DNA from: a virus | IMG/VR virus record: IMGVR_UViG_3300042691_031808 | Span: 1-36,512 of that record | Reading direction: 5' to 3' (one strand) | Length of the DNA stretch: 36,512 nucleotides | Part shown: positions 26,864-35,108 of the stretch, piece by piece | Position numbering within the stretch: position 1 is the first letter of the stretch | Layout: each line of letters starts with the position of its first letter | Notes under the pieces: generated by a model | What the model was told of the DNA's origin: nothing | Database searches by the model: none | Seen by the model: only the letters and a program-made list of their open reading frames with translations | Made by a program: the position numbers and the translations under genes

Positions 26864-27418
26864 ATGACTAAATCTTCGAGCACTATACTTAGAGAGTATT
26901 TAGATATACTAAACGAAGGACCCCCTCCAGAAGTAGGTCCTAATGCAGTAAAAAAACCTACATCAGAATCAAAAAAGAATTTTTTAGATTTCATGGAAGA
27001 TGTAGAATTGGAAGGTGACATTGTATCGGGCGATTACTTTCATATAGAGCTAGCAGAGGGCGAAGGTATAGAAACCTGGGTCATCGCTGAGTGGACAGAA
27101 TCTGTACTTATTGAAGCCGATGCTACCGTTTTAAAATTATTAGAACAACACGGTGCTACTTTCCACGACGAATTAACTGAAGCGGAATATCAAGGACGCA
27201 AAGTGCCATTAGGTAAACGTATGCCTGGAGATGTAAAAAAATCCAAAGTATATGTTCGTAAACCAAATGGAAAAGTAGTTAAAGTTAACTTCGGCGATAA
27301 AAAGATGAAGATAAAAAAATCTAATCCTAAACGTCGTAAAAGTTTTAGAGCACGTCATAACTGTCAAAATCCAGGACCGCGTTGGAAGGCACGTTATTGG
27401 TCATGTAGGGCATGGTAA
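26864..27418 (+). CDS. Conserved phage protein with leader motif and RARHNC/YWSCRAW tail, 184 aa
   Basis: The start STILREYLDILNEGPPP contains L16-N17-E18, a (L/I)-x-E site like those cut by the T4 gp21 prohead protease. The middle is acidic (ELAEGEGIETWVI, then LIEADA). The last 80 residues are basic and end with SFRARHNC...ARYWSCRAW, a Cys/Arg/Trp motif I recall in many marine T4-like phages with no known function. The two cysteines and a His could bind zinc. It heads the operon after the terminator, and its own ribosome-binding site is not evident, since the T run abuts the ATG. Confidence 0.7.
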   Translation: MTKSSSTILREYLDILNEGPPPEVGPNAVKKPTSESKKNFLDFMEDVELEGDIVSGDYFHIELAEGEGIETWVIAEWTESVLIEADATVLKLLEQHGATFHDELTEAEYQGRKVPLGKRMPGDVKKSKVYVRKPNGKVVKVNFGDKKMKIKKSNPKRRKSFRARHNCQNPGPRWKARYWSCRAW

Positions 27419-27419
27419 T

Positions 27420-27761
27420 ATGAAAATACTAGAAGTTATTAATCTCGATAGTTTTAACGCTGAAGAATATGATGTCGTAGAAGACTTAATGTTCTTTATG
27501 AATAATGATCCTCTTTTCTATAGACAAGATTATTATCCATCAATGTTAAAATTTATGAATTGCAATAAATCCGGAAAACCTTTCGAAAGTTCAAATTTTC
27601 GTCCTATGGTTAAAAAAGCTTACGAAATGTATCATCATAAATTTCCTGTAAAAAATTTAAAAAAAGAAATTAATTTAGAAATGATGGACGAAGTTTGTTC
27701 TAAAATTTATGAATCTGAATTAGAAAATATAAAGATGGGCCACTATAACAGTAAAAAATAA
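27420..27761 (+). CDS. Conserved phage protein, 113 aa
   Basis: It starts MKILEVINLDSFNAEEYDVV. The motif DLMFFMNNDPLFYRQDYYP followed by a PMVKKAYEMYHHKFP helix is one I recall in T4-like marine phages with no known function. The start is similar in hydrophobic spacing to the leader-bearing neighbours but lacks a clear (L/I)-x-E at the usual position, so I do not count it with them. It is nearly all helical and starts 1 base after the previous stop. Confidence 0.6.
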   Translation: MKILEVINLDSFNAEEYDVVEDLMFFMNNDPLFYRQDYYPSMLKFMNCNKSGKPFESSNFRPMVKKAYEMYHHKFPVKNLKKEINLEMMDEVCSKIYESELENIKMGHYNSKK

Positions 27762-27762
27762 A

Positions 27763-28683
27763 ATGCTATTAAGAGAACTATTTGAAAATGAGAGCACTAC
27801 TGTAGGAATAATCTTTGGAAGATTTAATCCTCCACATCAGGGCCATCATGCTGCTTGGGAAATGGCAGCTGAAAACGATCATTGGTTTGTTGGAACGAAT
27901 CAAAGTACACAAGGTCCAAAAGATCCTTTGCCATTCAAAGTAAAAGTTGAAGCCATGAAAAAAATATTTCCTGCAATTAAAGGACATATTGTTGCAGAAA
28001 CAAGTTGGCTAACATTAGCTAGTAAAGTGTACAAAGAATTTGGCGATATATCACTGAATGTATATACTGACGAAGAATGGGTCACTAAAACTATAGTGCA
28101 ATATAACGGAAAAGAAGGTCCGCACGGATTTTATAATTTTAAAAATATTCAAACACAACCTACTCCTAGATTAAGTTCAGCAACAGCATTAAGAGATGCA
28201 GTTGTAAAAGGAGACAGAGAAGCATTTAGTCAAGCAGCAGGTATTGATGCAGACACTGACATTGGAGGTCATGCATATTTTGATTTAGTAGCAAATTATC
28301 TATTACCATATCAAGATGCTCCTAAAAAATCTACATCTAAAAAGAAAGATAAAGAACGAGAAGTAGAAAAAGAATCAAGAGGATTTACTGATGTAAGCGG
28401 AATGAGCAGTAAAGAAATTCAAAGATTAGGTCATGAAGATGACGATTCTAGTACATGGACAGTTTTTGTAGATGGTAAGCGTTGGAAAGAGTTCGCAAAC
28501 GAAAAAGAAGCTTACAGAGCAGCAGCAGCCATTGAAAGAAAATATGGTAAAAAAACTAAAGTGTGGCGTGAATCTGTTTCTGAAGAAGCTGCGGGTGTAG
28601 GAATAATTACTAAACAAAATACAACCGTAGACGTAAACAAAAACACACCTCGTAAAAATTTAAAAGCATTTAGATTAGTTTAA
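27763..28683 (+). CDS. NMNAT-like nucleotidyltransferase with leader, 306 aa
   Basis: After an 8-residue leader MLLRELFE comes VGIIFGRFNPPHQGHH, the nucleotidyltransferase HxGH motif at 25-28. RLSSATALRDAV near residue 135 corresponds to the second signature (ISSTxxR) that binds the triphosphate. These fit NMN adenylyltransferase/bacterial cytidylyltransferase-like enzymes. A charged linker follows at about 190, then a small C-terminal domain (WTVFVDGKRWKEFANEKEAYRAAAAIERKYGK). The leader resembles the propeptide of T4 Alt and ends in L-F-E, a gp21-type site. The enzyme may thus enter the cell with the DNA. The substrate is not certain. Confidence 0.75.
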   Translation: MLLRELFENESTTVGIIFGRFNPPHQGHHAAWEMAAENDHWFVGTNQSTQGPKDPLPFKVKVEAMKKIFPAIKGHIVAETSWLTLASKVYKEFGDISLNVYTDEEWVTKTIVQYNGKEGPHGFYNFKNIQTQPTPRLSSATALRDAVVKGDREAFSQAAGIDADTDIGGHAYFDLVANYLLPYQDAPKKSTSKKKDKEREVEKESRGFTDVSGMSSKEIQRLGHEDDDSSTWTVFVDGKRWKEFANEKEAYRAAAAIERKYGKKTKVWRESVSEEAAGVGIITKQNTTVDVNKNTPRKNLKAFRLV

Positions 28684-28689
28684 GGATTA

Positions 28690-29133
28690 ATGATGGAAGA
28701 TTTACAAAAGGCCAGCAAAGTAGCATTTGCCAGTACGTTTAGTTTTTATCTAAAAGCACATAACTTTCATTGGAATGTTGAAGGTATACATTTTGCTGAA
28801 CTTCATGATCTGTTTGGAAAAATATATGAAGAAGTATATGGAAGCATAGACACTTTTGCAGAACAAATTCGTTCGCAAGGAACATATGTTCCAGCAAGTT
28901 ATCAAAGATTTAGTATGTTAACACAAATTGACGATGAAACTAATATTCTTCCTCCAGATGCTATGCTACAAGAACTTTTAGAAGATAATGAAAAAATTAT
29001 TAAAATTTTAAAGCTAGTATTCCAAGAATCCGAAAAAGTAGGAGAATACGGTTTCAGCGATTTCATTGCAGGTCGAATCGATGCACATCGTAAACATGGA
29101 TGGATGCTAAGAGCAAGTTTAAAAAATGGATGA
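28690..29133 (+). CDS. dps: Dps-like ferroxidase/DNA-protection protein, 147 aa
   Basis: The Dps ferroxidase ligands are present with the exact spacing of E. coli Dps: H27, H39, D54 and E58 (12, 15 and 4 residues apart) in HNFHWNVEGIHFAELHDLF and SIDTFAEQIR. Five helices of normal length follow, ending MLRASLKNG. Dps dodecamers oxidise and store iron and shield DNA from peroxide. The N-terminus is short and lacks the basic tail used for DNA binding. No (L/I)-x-E leader is present. It sits 6 bases after the nucleotidyltransferase gene and overlaps the next by 8. Confidence 0.85.
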   Translation: MMEDLQKASKVAFASTFSFYLKAHNFHWNVEGIHFAELHDLFGKIYEEVYGSIDTFAEQIRSQGTYVPASYQRFSMLTQIDDETNILPPDAMLQELLEDNEKIIKILKLVFQESEKVGEYGFSDFIAGRIDAHRKHGWMLRASLKNG

Positions 29134-29347
29134 ATTAGAACAAATTAAAAAACTTGCTGGCATTAACAGTTTTAATGGATGGCAAGTTTGGGAAGGTAGC
29201 AACATAAGCATCACCGGAAATGAAAAAGGTGAGCTAATGAAGAAACATAATATAAAACCTGGAACTCCTGAATGGTTTCAATTATGGTTTAGTCTACCTA
29301 AATTTACAGGCGAAAAACCAATAGGTCCAGGTATAAGAAAAAAATGA
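29126..29347 (+). CDS. Conserved small phage protein, 73 aa
   Basis: MDELEQIKKLAGI starts it, and a motif KKHNIKPGTPEWFQLWFSLP ends in FTGEKPIGPGIRKK. I recall this proline and tryptophan pattern in marine T4-like phages without a known role. There is no membrane segment. It overlaps the dps gene by 8 bases and the HAD-GH19 gene by 4 bases (ATGA), so all three are probably translated together. Confidence 0.65.
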   Translation: MDELEQIKKLAGINSFNGWQVWEGSNISITGNEKGELMKKHNIKPGTPEWFQLWFSLPKFTGEKPIGPGIRKK

Positions 29348-31086
29348 GAATACTTGATATTATCAGTGAAAGATTAGGTCCTACTGGCAATATGGCGCTG
29401 ACTATTTTTGACATCGACGATACATTATTTCATACTACTGCCAAAATTAAAGTTATTAAAAACGGTAAAGTAGTTCGTAGTTTAACTAATCAAGAATTTA
29501 ACAATTATCAACTACAGCCCGGTGAAGAGTTTGATTTCGGCGAATTTCGTAATGCTGAAAAGTTTGCTCAAGAAAGTGAACCAATCAAACCTATGATTAA
29601 CACTCTAAAACGTATATTAGACAGAGCAACAAATACAAAAGTTATCATGTTAACTGCTAGAGCAGATTTCGATGATAAAGAAAAATTTTTAGATACTTTT
29701 GAAAAATATGGTATCGATATGAGTCGTGTGCATGTTCATCGTGCAGGCAATCTTCCAGGCGATGATCCTCCTGCAATTAAGAAAGCAATATGGGTCAGAA
29801 AATATCTAAACACTGGAAAATATAGTAGAGTAAATTTAATAGATGACTCTATGAGTAATCTAAAAGTTTTTAAAAGTTTAAAATTAGAATATCCAACTGT
29901 AGATTTTGATGCTTACTTTGTTAAACCTTCAGGAAGTGTTAGTGTAGTAGAATCGTGGATAAGCGAAGTTAAAAATCCTTACGATAAGGTAAAAGGAGAT
30001 CCGATAGGATCATTAATTCAAAACTTACAAAATCCAAAAAAACAATCTACTGCTGTTAAAGGTCAAGCAGCACAGCCAGCACCTATTACTAGTAGTCCTT
30101 TAGAACAAACACTAAGAAACTTTGCTATTAAAGCAGGGATTAAAGGAAAAGAATTAGCACAATTTTTAGCTCAATGCGCTCATGAAACTATGAACTTTGC
30201 CAGTTTAGTAGAGCTAGGTGACAACTATAAAAATTATGATCCTAAATTTAATCCAGACAAAGCAAAGACTCTAGGAAACACTAGTCCTGGCGACGGCGAA
30301 CGTTTTAAAGGAAGAGGATTTATACAATTGACCGGTCGCTGGAATTATACACAGGCCGGTCAAGCATTAGGATTGCCACTAGATCAAAAACCTCAATTAT
30401 TAGAAAAACCTGATGTTGCTGCAAAGGCTAGTATTTGGTTTTGGAAAAACCGTGTGCAACCAAATGTTAAAAATTTTACAGATACAAAAACTGTAACTAG
30501 TTATATTAATCCTGGATTATATGGTTTACAGAAACGTCATGGGTTATTTCAAAACTACTTGAAAACCATGTCAACTACTAAAGAAGATTATCATCCTAAC
30601 GATAAGCCCCCTGGTCCAGAAACTAAACCAACTATGCCGGCAGGTACTGTTAGGGTGGACGTCAGCGATGTATATGATTGGTATAAATTAGGACAACATA
30701 TTAGTAACCTTAAAGGTCTAGGTAAACATGACTTTGGCAAGGGGCCTCCAAGCACTATACTGTCATTTGGTAGTGAAGAAGAAGAACACAAATATATACA
30801 AGATTTAATGAAATTAGGTCTTGACACAACAGATATCGATCCCATTGATCCAAACCAGCCCAAAAATATAAAGCGTCAAAAAGTCGATCCGACATTCAAT
30901 GTAGGTGAAAACTTTGCAGACGGGCGTAATCCTCAGGATAAAGGAGACAGTGCCCGGCACGGTATTCCTAAAAAGGCTAGCATAAGTACATTAAAGAGCA
31001 TTCGAAGCAGTAAAACAGCAAGTCCTCGTAAGAAACAATTAGCCCATTGGCAAATAAATATGAGGCAAGGAAAGAAAAAGGAGTGA
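29344..31086 (+). CDS. HAD phosphatase-GH19 lysozyme/chitinase fusion, 580 aa
   Basis: An N-terminal leader MRILDIISE (I7-S8-E9) is followed at once by a HAD domain: DxDDT at 23-27 (nucleophile D23), a motif II VIMLTAR and motif IV VNLIDDSMSN, up to about 200. A Gln/Ala-rich linker leads to a GH19 domain at about 255-400 with catalytic-type HE at 280-281 (AQCAHETMNF), then GRGFIQLTGRWNY and WFWKN. The last 60 residues hold a DSARHGIPKK...KKQLAHWQINM element that I recall from other phage proteins. GH19 domains cleave chitin or peptidoglycan. Its probable packaging leader makes it a candidate entry lysin. Confidence 0.8.
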   Translation: MRILDIISERLGPTGNMALTIFDIDDTLFHTTAKIKVIKNGKVVRSLTNQEFNNYQLQPGEEFDFGEFRNAEKFAQESEPIKPMINTLKRILDRATNTKVIMLTARADFDDKEKFLDTFEKYGIDMSRVHVHRAGNLPGDDPPAIKKAIWVRKYLNTGKYSRVNLIDDSMSNLKVFKSLKLEYPTVDFDAYFVKPSGSVSVVESWISEVKNPYDKVKGDPIGSLIQNLQNPKKQSTAVKGQAAQPAPITSSPLEQTLRNFAIKAGIKGKELAQFLAQCAHETMNFASLVELGDNYKNYDPKFNPDKAKTLGNTSPGDGERFKGRGFIQLTGRWNYTQAGQALGLPLDQKPQLLEKPDVAAKASIWFWKNRVQPNVKNFTDTKTVTSYINPGLYGLQKRHGLFQNYLKTMSTTKEDYHPNDKPPGPETKPTMPAGTVRVDVSDVYDWYKLGQHISNLKGLGKHDFGKGPPSTILSFGSEEEEHKYIQDLMKLGLDTTDIDPIDPNQPKNIKRQKVDPTFNVGENFADGRNPQDKGDSARHGIPKKASISTLKSIRSSKTASPRKKQLAHWQINMRQGKKKE

Positions 31087-31089
31087 TAT

Positions 31090-31725
31090 ATGAGCAGTTT
31101 TGAATTTGATTTTACTTTAGCAAAACTAAAGAAAGTAGTACATAAAAACAAAGAATTAGAGTTATGGCATAATGCGTTTAATACGTATTTGCCTAAATTT
31201 TATATTACTACACCAGCCCGTGTAGCAGGGTTTATAGCACAGTGCCAACACGAATCAGCTGATTTTACAGCACTGCAAGAAAACTTAAATTACGGAGCAA
31301 AGGGTCTGCGCGGACTGTTTGGAAAGTATTTTCCGGATGATGCTACTGCAAAAGCTTACGAACGTAAACCTGAAAAAATTGCTAATAAAATTTATAGCAG
31401 TCGTATGGGTAACGGACCAGAAGCTTCAGGCGACGGATGGAAATATCGTGGACGTGGAATTCTGCAACTAACAGGTCGCGATAATTACACTAAATGCAGC
31501 AGAGATTTATTTGGTGATGATACGCTAGCGAACGATCCGGATTTATTACGTACACCTGAGTATGCTACATTAAGTGCTTGCTGGTTCTGGTATAAAAATC
31601 AACTAAATGCAATTTGCGATAAAGGTGATATTGTATTATTAAGTAAAAAAATTAACGGCGGTACTATCGGAATGGAGGATCGCATCAAGCATTGGAATGA
31701 TGCATTGGATGCTTTCGAAGAGTAA
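31090..31725 (+). CDS. GH19-family endolysin, 211 aa
   Basis: A stand-alone GH19 domain: FIAQCQHESADFTALQENLNY, with HE as the catalytic region near residue 57, GRGILQLTGRDNY, then ACWFWYKN, and an acidic end. Neither a leader nor a signal peptide is present, so it would be cytoplasmic and need a holin for release. It is of normal length for phage GH19 endolysins. AAGGAG lies just before the ATG, and the stop overlaps the next ATG by one base. It is a sister of the GH19 domain in the preceding gene. Confidence 0.88.
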   Translation: MSSFEFDFTLAKLKKVVHKNKELELWHNAFNTYLPKFYITTPARVAGFIAQCQHESADFTALQENLNYGAKGLRGLFGKYFPDDATAKAYERKPEKIANKIYSSRMGNGPEASGDGWKYRGRGILQLTGRDNYTKCSRDLFGDDTLANDPDLLRTPEYATLSACWFWYKNQLNAICDKGDIVLLSKKINGGTIGMEDRIKHWNDALDAFEE

Positions 31726-31955
31726 TGAGATTAAGAGAGTTATTAGGAGAAACTGCAACTAGTGGTGCAACTAGTGCAGGAAACATAGCGGCTGTACCTA
31801 ATCCCCATATTGCTATTGGAAATATAAAACAATATGGTAAAGGTGCAGTCGCTAAACCTCCTAAGGCTTTACAAGCTAAAAATCCAGACGGTACTGCTAA
31901 AAATGCACTTGATATAAAAACTAACATATTCGGCGGTGGTGCCGTAAAACGATAA
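31725..31955 (+). CDS. Small conserved protein with leader motif, 76 aa
   Basis: MRLRELLGE (L7-G8-E9) opens it, then ATSGATSAGNIAAVPNP and YGKGAVAKPPKALQAKNPDG. It is glycine/alanine rich and probably flexible. The middle motif is one I recall in T4-like marine phages with no known role. With E9 as a gp21-type site, cleavage would leave about 67 residues, similar in size to small T4 internal proteins. It overlaps the endolysin stop by one base. Confidence 0.65.
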   Translation: MRLRELLGETATSGATSAGNIAAVPNPHIAIGNIKQYGKGAVAKPPKALQAKNPDGTAKNALDIKTNIFGGGAVKR

Positions 31956-31958
31956 ATA
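31951..31958 (+). promoter_or_regulatory. T4-type late promoter octamer (GATAAATA)
   Basis: GATAAATA at the end of the preceding gene, 22 bases upstream of the ATG at 31981. Context ACGATAAATA matches that at 19779. Confidence 0.55.
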
Positions 31959-31980
31959 TAATGTATTGGAGAAAAGACTC

Positions 31981-32703
31981 ATGAACTTAGATAGACATCC
32001 AGATAAACACGAAGCAGCAATGGCTCGTGCTGATCTATACAAACTAGCCAACTATTCTATGAAATTATTTAAAATGATTCAAGAAGGTCAAGAATTAGAA
32101 GGCTGGGTACAAGCTAAAATTACTAAAGCAGCTGACTATATTTCCAGCGTATATCATTTTATGCAGTATGAAATGAAAGTTAGTGAATATGGAGACACTT
32201 TAGAGAACAGTGATGTCTATAGCGAAAGTGTACGTCGTGCTTTTGAACAAAAGTTAATGGAAGCAAAACGTCAAGCCGAAAAAGCTAAAAAAGAAGCCAG
32301 TAAGGTTGAAGAAGGCTTCGAAGAAATGGAAAAATGGCTTAAAGATAAAAAAGGTCCACAACCTAGTGGCGGTGCTGGTAAAAAGCAAGGTTCTAAATAT
32401 GGCGGCAGCAAACAAGCAGCCGATAAGGAAGACGACGAAGATGAAGGCAAGAAGAAGGATAAAAAAGTTAAAGAATCGGCTAAGCCAGATTATCTTGACT
32501 TCGACAAGGACGGTAACAAAAAAGAGCCAATGAAAAAGGCCTTAAAAGATAAGAAAGTTAAAGAAGCAGCTGATGAATGCAATCACAGTCCTAAAGGTAA
32601 AAAATGCCCTGTACACGGATTGAAAGAATGTGGCAGCATGAGTGAAGCTAAAAATCTAAAACAGCAAGCAGCTATTGCTATTGCTAAAAAGAAGGCAAAA
32701 TAA
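31981..32703 (+). CDS. Conserved T4-like phage protein with EF-hand- and zinc-type motifs, 240 aa
   Basis: ATG at 31981 is chosen over the in-frame TTG at 31966 because TTGGAG lies 9 bases upstream and relatives I recall begin MNLDRHPDKHEA. Residues 1-80 are helical (LYKLANYSMKLFKMIQEGQ, then VQAKITKAADYISSVYHFM). A Lys/Glu-rich stretch follows, then YLDFDKDGNKKEPMKKA near 185, which looks like an EF-hand loop (DxDxDGN). Close to the end is CNHSPKGKKCPVHGLKEC, a candidate zinc knuckle. The function is unknown, but late-promoter context and composition suggest a virion or prohead core component. Confidence 0.7.
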   Translation: MNLDRHPDKHEAAMARADLYKLANYSMKLFKMIQEGQELEGWVQAKITKAADYISSVYHFMQYEMKVSEYGDTLENSDVYSESVRRAFEQKLMEAKRQAEKAKKEASKVEEGFEEMEKWLKDKKGPQPSGGAGKKQGSKYGGSKQAADKEDDEDEGKKKDKKVKESAKPDYLDFDKDGNKKEPMKKALKDKKVKEAADECNHSPKGKKCPVHGLKECGSMSEAKNLKQQAAIAIAKKKAK

Positions 32704-32707
32704 AATC

Positions 32708-33646
32708 ATGGACATGAAAAAGATATTATCTGCTATAGATGGAGCGAATAAGCCTGTAGCAGATTCTTCGGAAATGAAGAAATTTGTATCTATTGTAAAT
32801 GAATCTGCTACTAATCGTTTGAGTATGGCAGAACAACTAGCGGTTCAACATTATCAAAAAGATATTACCAATCCTGTACTTAATAAAGATAAAGATGCAA
32901 AACCTAGTATGATTGGAAAATACTTTAAACAAATTGAAGATGAATTAGCCGAATCAGAACAAAGATATAAAGACCGTGCTAAACAATTAGCAGAACGTGT
33001 TATTACTAAAATGAACGAAAAAACCTCCGATGTGGATGCTGCTGTAAAAGATTACATATCAAAAGGCGGAGAAATTAAACAAGGTAAAACACATAAACCA
33101 CGCAAAAGTGAAAAAACTGACTTTGGTAGTAAACATATCGGTGGCAAAGGAGAGGTTAATAAATCTGGTAAGGCTACTAAGATTGGCAAATCTGCTAATA
33201 CTCAAGGAAAGCCTGTTGTTAAAGTCGAAACAATTTTAACAAACATCAGAAATTTAAAATCTCAATTAGATGAACAGATTTCACAATTAGAAGAGTATTA
33301 CTCAGCTCCTCCTACAGATAGCATGAGTCCTATTCCAGGAAAACATCATCCAGATTGTAAATGTAAAGAAGTAGAAGAAGGGTTACGTGATCCAAAAGAT
33401 AATCCTTGCTGGAAAGGATATAAGCCTGTTGGCACTAAACAAAAAAATGGTCGCACAGTTCCTAACTGTGTTCCTAAAGAAAGTGTAGGAGAATCTATAC
33501 CGTTTGCCAGTAAAACACAAAAAACTGGAGAAGCAGGGCAACTAAGAGCAAAAGACAAAGTTTCTGTTAACGGAACTGTCCTAGGTTCGCCTGAAAAAAG
33601 TCAAAAAGGCTTACGAGGTAAGCTAGTTGGCGGATCTTCTTCCTAG
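32708..33646 (+). CDS. Conserved T4-like phage protein with Cys/Trp module, 312 aa
   Basis: I take ATG at 32708. A second in-frame ATG at 32714 is equally possible. A helical N-terminal region (KKFVSIVNESATNRLSMAEQ) precedes a Lys-rich middle. Two short metal-type modules follow: HHPDCKCKE near 220 and DNPCWKGYKPVGTKQKNG...PNCVPK near 240. The latter is an element I recall repeatedly in marine T4-like phage proteins. The C-terminus ends KSQKGLRGKLVGGSSS. No catalytic motif is seen. It may be a prohead or internal protein, by position and composition. Confidence 0.65.
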   Translation: MDMKKILSAIDGANKPVADSSEMKKFVSIVNESATNRLSMAEQLAVQHYQKDITNPVLNKDKDAKPSMIGKYFKQIEDELAESEQRYKDRAKQLAERVITKMNEKTSDVDAAVKDYISKGGEIKQGKTHKPRKSEKTDFGSKHIGGKGEVNKSGKATKIGKSANTQGKPVVKVETILTNIRNLKSQLDEQISQLEEYYSAPPTDSMSPIPGKHHPDCKCKEVEEGLRDPKDNPCWKGYKPVGTKQKNGRTVPNCVPKESVGESIPFASKTQKTGEAGQLRAKDKVSVNGTVLGSPEKSQKGLRGKLVGGSSS

Positions 33647-33725
33647 AACACACCTTAGGACCGTGTGTAGGCGGCTTCTGCCTTATCCAAAGGAGTCGTG
33701 CCCAGAGGATTAAAAGAGCAAATAT
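33647..33725 (+). other. Intergenic stretch with an ACACAC/GTGTGT hairpin
   Basis: Between the stop of the preceding gene and the terminator, ACACAC and GTGTGT can form a 6-base-pair hairpin with a 9-base loop. A weaker AGGC/GCCT pair follows. No conserved RNA is recognised. A shifted frame across the stop reads LPRTHLRTVCRRLLPYP and ends at TAA, but I have no support that it is translated. Confidence 0.3.
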
Positions 33726-33753
33726 AAAAAAAGCAGCCTTAGGCTGCTTTTTT
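33726..33753. terminator. Bidirectional terminator before the minus-strand gene
   Basis: GCAGCC at 33733-33738 pairs with GGCTGC at 33742-33747 around TTA. Seven As precede and six Ts follow, so the stem extends and both strands end in a U run. It terminates plus-strand late transcripts and the minus-strand gene whose stop is at 33752. Confidence 0.9.
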
Positions 33754-34069
33754 AATGCCAATTACCTTGAAAACAATGTCTTACTTCATGTCCTAAAATA
33801 TGCATAGTGGCTTGTTTTCCTGTTATGATAGTACAAGTATTATTATGAAAGAAACTACAAGCTTGTACTCCGAATCCAAATCCTTTGTGACCTCTTTTAC
33901 GAGATTCGTCTTCGCAAGCTTTTTGAACATTGTCCTCAGTTCTCCATGTAATTGTACTCTGATTAGTATAATTATTAGAAGTATTGAATGGACTTTCAGG
34001 ATCGCTGTTAAGTGCTATTGCTTGATTAGCAACTAACAAAGAAATTAATGCAAAAAGTTTGGATTTCAT
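33752..34069 (-). CDS. Secreted protein with HExxH motif (moron-like), 105 aa
   Basis: An ATG at 34069 is chosen because it gives a clean signal peptide (MKSKLFALISLLVANQAIA, cut after AIA), whereas the upstream in-frame start adds a non-signal stretch. The mature part has four cysteines, suited to disulfides in the periplasm, and ends HILGHEVRHCFQGNWH, with the HExxH zinc motif and a further His close by. It may be a small zinc peptidase, though only the motif supports that. It runs against all neighbours, has its own sigma70 promoter and terminator, and is probably expressed independently of the lytic programme. Confidence 0.7.
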   Translation of the reverse strand: MKSKLFALISLLVANQAIALNSDPESPFNTSNNYTNQSTITWRTEDNVQKACEDESRKRGHKGFGFGVQACSFFHNNTCTIITGKQATMHILGHEVRHCFQGNWH

Positions 34070-34098
34070 AGCGATACAATTTAATTGATAACAGTACA

Positions 34099-34127
34099 AT
34101 TATAATTTCAAAGTTGTAAAAACTCAA
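34099..34127 (-). promoter_or_regulatory. Sigma70 promoter of the minus-strand secreted gene
   Basis: On the minus strand: TTGAGT (34127-34122), a 17-base spacer and TATAAT (34104-34099). Expected start is near 34092, giving a leader of about 23 bases to the ATG at 34069. No clear Shine-Dalgarno sequence is visible in it. Confidence 0.65.
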
Positions 34128-34147
34128 GAATTTTGGTGTAAAATTAA

Positions 34148-34155
34148 AATAAATA
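34148..34155 (+). promoter_or_regulatory. Late-promoter-like octamer (AATAAATA)
   Basis: AATAAATA lies 17 bases upstream of the ATG at 34173, with GAGGAT between as ribosome-binding site. It is in AT-rich sequence, so support is moderate. Confidence 0.4.
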
Positions 34156-34172
34156 TAACATCGAGGATTAAT

Positions 34173-35108
34173 ATGAAACTTTTAAGCATTTTAATTGAAC
34201 AAGAGCAACTGACTGCACAAGAAAAAGAATATGATAAAATAGGTCAGAACCTAGAAGCGGCTGCATCTGCTCAGCCAAAACTTCTAGATGATCCAAAATT
34301 CAGAGCCAAATTAGACAAATACAGAGCATGGAAAAAAGGTAAATCTCAACCGGCAACAACTGCTGATAAACCTGCTAATGCTACTGCTGGTGTTCAGCAA
34401 ATAACTGGAGTAGATACATCAGTACAACTTAATGTAGAGCAATTAAAATCTGCATTTAATTTTAATTCGGCTGTTAAATCAGAAGTTATTGCTCAAGTTC
34501 AAAAAATTCTAGAACATTTTAAAATAACTCCTGTTGGGAAGCCTGGAGTAAATGATGAAAGATTTATCTACGCATTGGCTAATTTTCAAAAGAAAGCTGG
34601 ATTAGCTGCAACAGGAAAATATGATAATCAAACTAAAGCTGCTATGGAAAAGCAACTTAAAACTAATCCTTTGCCTAAAACAGATAAGCCAACAGACACA
34701 AATACTCAAAATCAAAATCAAAATCAGGATCAACAAGGAGAGAACAAGCCCGAGACACCGGGCATCAATCCTGCAACTACAGAAGATTTTAACAAATTGC
34801 CGGGACAAATGTTTACACATTCTGGTTCCAATATTCAATACAAAATTGTAAAAACAATGCCTTATCGAAACGACAATGATGTAACTATGGTGTTGTTAGC
34901 TCAACACTTAGAAGGATTGGTTTTCTTTTTTATATTTGGTTTAGATCCTGTTAAAAGAAGAGAATTTATTCCAGATGTAAGTACAGACAAAATTAAATCT
35001 GATCAGAGAAAAATGGAACAACTTTTTACAACTGAATACAGATTAAAAGGTCCTTATCTATATGGTCCTAATACTCTGCCAGATACTATAGGACAAAAAA
35101 TATCATAA
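34173..35108 (+). CDS. Leader-bearing protein with peptidoglycan-binding-like domain, 311 aa
   Basis: Leader MKLLSILIE (L7-I8-E9), then a helical charged region. At about residues 100-160 there is a PG_binding_1-like helical repeat (VQKILEHFKITPVG, ALANFQKKAGLAATGKYDNQT), which in other proteins binds the cell wall. A Gln/Asn/Pro linker (NQNQNQNQ) leads to an unknown C-terminal domain from about 210 with YKIVKTMPYRND and VFFFIFGLD. If the leader is removed by the prohead protease, the protein would sit in the head. The cell-wall-binding domain would then fit a role in DNA entry. That is inferred. Confidence 0.65.
   Translation: MKLLSILIEQEQLTAQEKEYDKIGQNLEAAASAQPKLLDDPKFRAKLDKYRAWKKGKSQPATTADKPANATAGVQQITGVDTSVQLNVEQLKSAFNFNSAVKSEVIAQVQKILEHFKITPVGKPGVNDERFIYALANFQKKAGLAATGKYDNQTKAAMEKQLKTNPLPKTDKPTDTNTQNQNQNQDQQGENKPETPGINPATTEDFNKLPGQMFTHSGSNIQYKIVKTMPYRNDNDVTMVLLAQHLEGLVFFFIFGLDPVKRREFIPDVSTDKIKSDQRKMEQLFTTEYRLKGPYLYGPNTLPDTIGQKIS

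Follow-up and report, generated by a model that had tools for sequence, protein, structure and literature searches.

What do the short, mutually similar N-terminal leaders on otherwise dissimilar proteins of one phage gene block do? The block (26.8–35.1 kb) lies in a virus record of 36,512 bases (IMGVR_UViG_3300042691_031808), referred to here in its whole length as the window and recognized by gene content as a T4-like phage, and the leader genes in it are all on the + strand. Sequence comparison with related phages lets us read these leaders, with considerable confidence, as T4-type capsid-targeting sequences (CTS), mostly of a 9-residue variant, M-[K/R]-h-x-[E/D]-h-h-x-E (h, hydrophobic), which in the main would act by targeting proteins to the head. 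The T4 CTS is a known kind of signal; what is new is the 9-residue variant on enzyme cargo, in 16–34 families of the sampled relatives.

N-terminal leaders in the window and in related phages

The initial annotation listed five proteins with an N-terminal leader of 8–18 residues that ends in L/I-x-E, and all five are present in the sequence, each with this ending (5/5) and, by reading, with hydrophobic residues at the targeting positions (5/5). The first, at the start of the open reading frame (ORF) 26864–27418, had been quoted as TILREYLDILNE, which corresponds to residues 7–18; the leader is there, and its true start gives MTKSSSTILREYLDILNE (residues 1–18; 26864–26917), followed by Gly, with near relatives that open MTSQSSTLLRAYLDILNE and MTSGSILRNYLDILNE. 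MLLRELFE (27763–27786), followed by Asn, opens the NMNAT/cytidylyltransferase-like enzyme of ORF 27763–28683 and was assigned from the sequence and the N termini of homologues. MRILDIISE (29344–29370), followed by Arg, opens the HAD-GH19 protein of ORF 29344–31086 and was assigned from sequence, homologues, and an AlphaFold model; MRLRELLGE (31725–31751), followed by Thr, opens a 76-residue protein (ORF 31725–31955) and was assigned from homologue N termini. The fifth, MKLLSILIE (34173–34199), followed by Gln, opens a peptidoglycan-binding protein (34173–35108; PG_binding_1, E 1.7e-08) that has no homologue within the protein set of the relatives, beyond which no further search was made. ORF 27420–27761 is a sixth gene with a leader-like head, MKILEVINL (27420–27446), in which position 9 is not Glu; its homologues open MRIDELVN, MKIQDLFENI, and MKVFEIFSQ. 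In AlphaFold models, the leader of the 27763 protein is a short low-confidence helix (residues 3–8) ahead of a domain folded from residue 13, and the 29344 protein has a low-confidence helix at residues 3–10 and the first HAD strand from residue 17.

The same leaders were to be sought in genes outside the window, and they are frequent there. The protein set comprised 2503 distinct proteins (ORF calls of at least 60 residues) from the window, from related loci that were collected using a query bearing the NFADG module described below, and from five long related records. The 9-residue pattern ^M[KR]..[EDSNQ][LIF][LIVFM].E, drafted after some of these records had been viewed, matches 73 of the 2503 proteins, as compared with a mean of 0.5 (maximum 3 in 100) when residues 2–15 are permuted. 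Only 2 of 10906 internal Met positions fit it, so the enrichment is confined to true N termini. Among the 1596 held-out proteins, which have no 20-mer in common with the inspected records, 56 match (shuffle mean 0.38, maximum 4 in 200; internal Met 1/6238). At position 3, left free by the pattern, 71 of the 73 leaders have I, L, V, F, or A, and the leader head is found in 243/2503 proteins overall. A bare L/I-x-E rule was rejected as a detector because it is too weak (352/2503 as compared with about 177 expected).

Leaders of this type stand on otherwise dissimilar proteins: 34 of 1170 coverage-limited clusters contain the pattern (shuffled mean 0.56, maximum 2), as do 16 families by a looser clustering. 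The coverage-limited version, which may split some homologues, replaced the looser one, which puts 392 proteins in one lump through shared domains; both counts are given. The leader genes are clustered in each of the five long records (p 0.0325 or less), although these tests are not independent because two of the records (G001 and G002) have the region in common. In a 138 kb relative, 8 of 14 consecutive genes fit a looser 9-residue pattern and 11, by reading, have at least the leader head. A chance origin of the 9-residue leader is excluded.

A likeness of N termini could also arise at the DNA level, from a recombined common 5' gene segment or a translation-start bias, with no signal in the protein. 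A modest excess of identical codons points that way (571 of 981 identical leader residues between families, 58% as compared with 47.6% expected). However, leaders with at least 7 identical residues often differ at several bases (19–24 of 27 identical in the best 15 of 159 pairs), and one and the same enzyme has leaders that differ in sequence across phages while keeping a similar physical pattern (MLLRELFE, MIKSFNDYLVE, MKTLLNFLTE), so that this explanation is very improbable. Leaders vary on the same enzyme or are absent from it, as in phages S-CAM4 and GAP32, which places the leader outside the enzyme fold.

Conservation was scored on distinct N termini as a hydrophobic-x-Glu within the first 24 residues, a loose test with a background of 638/2132 N termini (30%) outside the tested families. 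The initial annotation had made its reading depend on leaders being conserved in homologues, and this holds for some families only. The nucleotidyltransferase family has the site in 26 of 29 N termini, the family of the 76-residue protein in 20 of 21, and the 26864 family in 14 of 16, whereas the HAD family, with a targeting-like head in 20 of 23 (background also 638/2132), has the site in 9 of 23, close to background. The 27420 family has the head in 15/19 and the site in 10/19. A strict "h..hhxE" score gives only 5/29 for the nucleotidyltransferases, whose site lies one residue earlier, and the looser count was used instead. HAD-family leaders often have D or K where the Glu would be (MRASDFVKD, MRASDFVKK); by the T4 rule, such proteins would be targeted yet left untrimmed. 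Given a head that is kept and a site frequency near background, it is probable that not all leaders are cleaved. A Dps-like ferritin (28690–29133, +; Pfam Ferritin 6.7e-20), which has no leader and serves as a negative control within the locus, has the site in 0/17 N termini over the same 24 residues. The GH19 protein at 31090–31725 (+) also lacks a leader, as judged by domain matches and homologue N termini: homologues shorter than 260 residues have the head in 3/14 and the site in 5/14, and GH19 homologues at large, a set that includes multidomain leader proteins, have the site in 14/28. Two further window families, those of 31966 and 32675, score 19/37 and 8/29.

The T4 capsid-targeting system and virion proteins of isolates

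In T4, the first 10 residues of the internal protein IPIII are reported to be enough for packaging, with residues 4 and 7 important for targeting and residues 8 and 10 for processing; Asp at position 10 stops processing but not targeting, and cleavage by gp21 follows L/I-x-E (PMC9026906). The GenBank sequences of IPII and IPIII open MKTYQEFIAE and that of Alt opens MELITELFDE. In the leaders of the relatives, the hydrophobic residues 6 and 7 and Glu9, which the pattern fixes, together with position 3 reproduce the spacing from the Glu that is found in IPIII. The T4 CTS (IPI, IPII, IPIII, and Alt, processed by gp21) is alike in being an N-terminal leader of about 10 residues with hydrophobics at targeting positions and an L/I-x-E end, in standing on unrelated proteins, and, as far as relatives of the window phage are concerned, in a protease of gp21 type. 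It differs in that the leaders of the relatives are mostly of 9 residues with K/R at position 2 and E/D at position 5, in that enzymes and multidomain proteins carry them, in 16–34 families and with several clustered genes per record, and in that some families keep the leader head only. A looser pattern, drafted with the T4 leaders in mind, matches 7 of 272 T4 ORFs, namely IPII, IPIII, gp2, gp21, gp22, gp24, and the uncharacterized 61.1. Gene 61.1 (MKTFKEFIKE; L174 18966–19130) has a CTS-like N terminus and would be a candidate internal protein; the N terminus of gene 2 (MAIFQIINE; L175 26061–26885) is CTS-like as well.

Cyanophage isolates link such leaders to virions. In S-CREM2, 52 virion proteins were detected by mass spectrometry (PMC10665884), and among these the GenBank N termini read MKDFDSFLEE (gp6, SAM hydrolase), MKDLHSFLTE (gp13), MKRFDAFLTE (gp14, APH/ChoK-like kinase), MQTFSMFFSE (gp136), and MKNFSSFLTE (gp154, cytidylyltransferase). 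The last is of the same enzyme class as the 27763 protein of the window and has the GRxNPPHxGH motif in common with it. The exact T4 register occurs in 5/52 virion proteins and in 1/167 other proteins of S-CREM2 (p 0.003). The leader of the S-SCSM1 NMNAT is MKSFLQFLKE and that of the S-SZBM1 cytidylyltransferase is MRFRQFIIE, both being virion proteins according to the mass spectrometry reported for these phages (PMC9602691 and PMC9146016, respectively). The S-SM1 virion is described as containing a putative citidylyltransferase, T4-GC190 (PMC3037559), and the S-SM2 enzyme that is annotated T4-GC190 like this protein opens MKSFFQFLSE. With S-CREM2 and S-SCSM1 pooled, the register is found in 6/100 virion proteins and 3/405 others (p 0.0026). 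The T4 register is thus rare and fairly specific to virion proteins, and most virion proteins are without it. The virion enzymes of T4-like cyanophages (cytidylyltransferase/NMNAT, SAM hydrolase, and APH/ChoK-like kinase of S-CREM2, S-SCSM1, S-SZBM1, and S-SM1) resemble the window proteins in enzyme class and, in those examined, in their CTS-like leaders, and differ in that the leaders are mostly in the 10-residue T4 register. They were published as virion-associated; the leaders are not mentioned in the consulted parts of the S-CREM2, S-SCSM1, and S-SZBM1 virion accounts. Two other N termini were noted: the Cas9-like nuclease gp12 of S-CREM2 (L179 7704–10313), detected in the virion, has a CTS-like RFASFMAE shifted to residues 18–25, and a 106-residue hypothetical protein of S-SCSM1 (L187 44215–44535), not marked as a virion protein, opens with the T4-leader-like MKTFKQFMSE.

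Several observations speak against reading the leaders as capsid-targeting sequences. The significant test in S-CREM2 was one of three, two looser rules giving p 0.06 and 0.17; in S-SCSM1, the whole-genome test gave 1/48 virion proteins and 2/238 others (p 0.42), and the carriers of the register outside the virion include its RecA-like protein. The S-CREM2 authors caution that the detected enzymes might be co-purified (PMC10665884), and all the virion data concern homologues in isolates rather than the window phage. The nucleotidyltransferases of S-CAM4 and GAP32 have no leader. Among the 272 T4 ORFs, the pattern drafted with the T4 leaders in mind does not pick up IPI or Alt, and the 9-residue patterns match no internal protein, the looser of them matching UvsY. 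The near-background site frequency of the HAD family counts on the same side, as does the outcome, for the window itself, of the search for a gp21 homologue that the initial annotation had called for: the S77 search gave none in the 36.5 kb, and no capsid gene was seen among the ORFs either. The missing protease is as expected, because the record is a fragment. In favor of the reading, gp21-family proteases (Pfam S77) were found in 6 and gp23 in 7 of the 18 records of relatives, a set that includes several fragments.

Since T4 targeting and processing are separable by the Asp substitution at position 10 (PMC9026906), the leaders might be non-cleaved helices that dock onto a part of the virion (core, capsid wall, or tail), with the Glu as a mere element of an amphipathic pattern. 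The HAD and 27420 relatives, in which the head is kept and the Glu often gives way to D or K or is lacking, are what would be expected of such helices. The frequencies of hydrophobic-x-Glu in the nucleotidyltransferase and 76-residue protein families (26/29 and 20/21, background 30%) argue against it, as do the two kinds of junction described in the next section, and we regard it as unlikely.

The capsid-targeting reading is well supported by inference from the unrelated proteins that carry the leader, the T4 positions, the protease and capsid genes of relatives, and the virion homologues; what it does not retain is cleavage as a universal step. Its parts are of unequal strength. The leaders very probably target proteins to the head, and cleavage after the Glu is probable where the site is kept. 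Late in infection, as in T4, the leader hydrophobics would bind the protein to the prohead's proteinaceous core, and a gp21-type protease would then cut after the Glu in the same wave as capsid protein trimming, as the shared junction suggests. The mature enzymes would remain in the head with the DNA, which is consistent with the homologues found in virions, and by analogy with T4 the cargo would enter the cell at infection, an injection that we consider somewhat favored. The cargo would be the NMNAT/cytidylyltransferase-like enzyme, the HAD-GH19 protein, the peptidoglycan-binding protein, and small proteins. For this packaged set, which the initial annotation had proposed, the leader-bearing nucleotidyltransferase homologues in virions of isolates are favorable.

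Glutamate junctions in capsid and putative cargo proteins

In the 76-residue protein, Glu9 and the following TATSGATSAGNIAAV (31749–31796, +; junction RELLGE|TATSGATSAGNIAAV) resemble the Glu junction in the major capsid protein of relatives. Seven capsid proteins of relatives (translated; two identical) have a hydrophobic-x-Glu directly ahead of the conserved domain in 7/7, and after this Glu, 6/7 contain a stretch with GATSAGNVATL; G002 reads YLAE|SATGGATSAGNVATL, and G010 has STAGTTTSGNIATL. When the 16-mer of the small family was compared with the 2503 proteins, it matched the small family, C-terminal copies in other proteins, most of them leader-bearing, capsid proteins, and one more protein weakly. 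The capsid proteins score 12 (G002), 11 (G007), and 9 (G010) of 16, and the best scores in four shuffled proteomes are 8–9, so the G010 match is at the shuffled level. On sequence, no other finding ties the leader Glu to the prohead protease as strongly as this likeness, which also speaks against an uncleaved helix. Junction copies like TATxGATSAG, each after a Glu, were also seen in the C-terminal parts of eight proteins (L057, L035, L041, L020, L063, L043, L023, and L067); proteins with such copies mostly carry an N-terminal leader too.

Similar sites lie inside the putative cargo proteins. The HAD-GH19 protein ends in the NFADG module (58 residues; 30910–31083, +), homologues of which occur in many contexts in L002–L081 and which has no Pfam match; Glu522 (V-G-E; 30907–30909, +) stands ahead of it, as seen from module comparison and a position profile. 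A Glu directly precedes NFADG modules in 39/39 distinct cases, with hydrophobic-x-Glu in 37/39. In the 8-residue contexts (35 distinct), constraint is marked at P1, with Glu in 35/35, and at P3, with a hydrophobic in 33/35; that mainly these two are held also disfavors a docking helix in which the Glu has no part in cleavage. In two cases the leader abuts the module directly (MRIHEVILE|NFADG and MRAKEFITE|NFADG), and 29 of 41 NFADG proteins have the leader head, as compared with 243/2503 overall, in loci that were gathered with an NFADG-bearing query. In the 26864 protein, Glu106 (L-T-E; 27179–27181, +) precedes an AEYQGRKV module (residues 107–184) by module comparison; a Glu stands directly before AEYQG modules in 9/9 distinct cases, hydrophobic-x-Glu in 8/9, and the leader abuts the module in 2/9. 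Comparison of homologues points to Glu208 (W-I-S-E; 29965–29967, +) as a site where the HAD domain might be cut from the remainder of its protein. The 20 residues after the HAD domain contain hydrophobic-x-Glu in 10 of 12 distinct continuing homologues, as compared with 2.6 expected when places are drawn at random from these proteins, a post hoc comparison. The NFADG, AEYQG, and post-HAD sites would look like protease sites between modules; alternatively, the Glu and the P3 residue are parts of the NFADG module itself.

If these are protease sites, a single leader might take a cargo of several domains into the prohead. The gp21-type protease that removes the leader would there also cut at the hydrophobic-x-Glu between modules and free separate enzymes and small proteins; we put forward this cargo polyprotein tentatively. 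In the window, the HAD domain would be separated from the GH19 part and the latter from the NFADG tail, and the 26864 protein would be cut before its AEYQG module. Among 232 internal junctions of modules that are leader-borne elsewhere, which are not independent of one another, 113 have a site nearby (28.2 expected), as compared with 40 of 200 control junctions (23.1 expected). No such site precedes CWKGY-type (0/17) or RNFVAK-type modules (0/10), and none is found at the junctions of internal nucleotidyltransferase copies among the 45 junctions listed. As a general rule, polyprotein cutting is borne out only in part, the excess being real but partial.

Possible cargo roles, related systems, and neighboring features

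The nucleotidyltransferase domain (27787–28680, +) was assigned by Pfam, PHROG, and Foldseek to an NMNAT/NaMNAT-like fold with an HxGH motif and a C-terminal part. CTP_transf_like (Pfam) gives E 0.00081, just under the cut-off, and the PHROG cytidyltransferase E 2e-17; the motif reads HQGH, the columns of G27 and H28 do not vary across 27 sequences, and the top Foldseek matches are NadM/NadD (probability 1.00, with low TM-scores). Because the fold is nearest to NMN/NaMN adenylyltransferases, a role in NAD metabolism is a fair guess, and such a role was proposed earlier for cyanophages (PMC9602691). The HAD part was likened to acid phosphatases and to the 3' phosphatase of T4 Pnkp (PHROG 415, E 7e-10; Foldseek weak). 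Nine leader proteins of other relatives were scanned; DUF6267, an amidoligase, an M23 peptidase, and a weak GNAT match were found, and three proteins had no match. The small leader protein, the RNFVAK-type protein, and the NFADG module gave no tblastn match in 50,697 phage records.

The GH19 and peptidoglycan-binding domains suggest a role at the cell wall. Peptidoglycan-active domains of these kinds are typical of tail lysins, and the proteins could instead be structural or tail-associated, with the leader as a local assembly element outside the head; two endolysins of the S-CREM2 virion, gp208 and gp209, have no leader. In T4, however, it is mostly head, core, or DNA-end proteins that carry such leaders, and the junction of the 76-residue protein resembles that of the capsid protein; both points make a tail location quite improbable.

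Under capsid targeting, defense or host-takeover roles of the cargo may be inferred; the injected T4 IPI–III are described as acting against GmrSD nucleases, by which host defenses are blocked at the start of infection (PMC12373910). If the leader code holds, sequence would be enough to read which proteins uncultured T4-like phages inject, and DUF6267, amidoligase, M23 peptidase, and the weak GNAT match would be predicted new cargo classes. The code would also help to explain metabolic enzymes in cyanophage virions, for which the S-CREM2 authors left packaging or contamination open (PMC10665884), and the leaders would offer short tags for packaging tests. Among the papers listed in literature searches, judged mainly by titles and the starts of abstracts, none gives an account of such leaders in environmental or cyanophage genomes, and of 15 papers that name a capsid targeting sequence, none has a title on such genomes. 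Other signals are partly alike. That of phage P1 DarB is N-terminal and packages a reporter, and differs in being longer than 9 and shorter than 30 residues, with no consensus reported among the Dar proteins in the part of the account consulted (PMC9024508). In phiKZ and SPN3US, head proteins are cut after x-Glu by a gp21 relative, and the propeptides are described as mostly longer than 100 residues (PMC5694885), unlike the window leaders of 8–18.

ATAAATA is the core of the T4 late promoter. It occurs at 10 sites on the + strand of the window and at none on the − strand, and 8 of the 10 lie 17–33 bases before a gene start, among them those of 31090, 31981, and 34173. The late-promoter-like site at 34149–34155 (+) is 18 bases before 34173, and further + strand sites are at 1082, 8081, 14449, 19780, 21847, 31054, and 31952. 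The heptamer is depleted overall (10 as compared with 18.6 expected in the window), and the T4 late-promoter consensus TATAAATA is not enriched there (2 sites, 5.5 expected). The placing of the sites is compatible with a part of the block being expressed late, as virion genes are.

To the left, the window contains tail and baseplate-type genes and, in the middle, a clamp loader and a ClpA-like ATPase; at its right end, an ORF opening MYVDAYFNRD is presumably the start of the DNA polymerase gene, which is complete in relatives. Within the block, ORF 32708–33646 contains a leader-like but internal MKKFVSIVNE, with Glu32 at 32801–32803 (+), where relatives read KKFLSIMNE or EKFLSIVNE. The block also holds a small minus-strand ORF (33752–34099) with a secretion-signal-like N terminus, and similar ORFs are found at L002 16472–16786 and L004 16595–16948.

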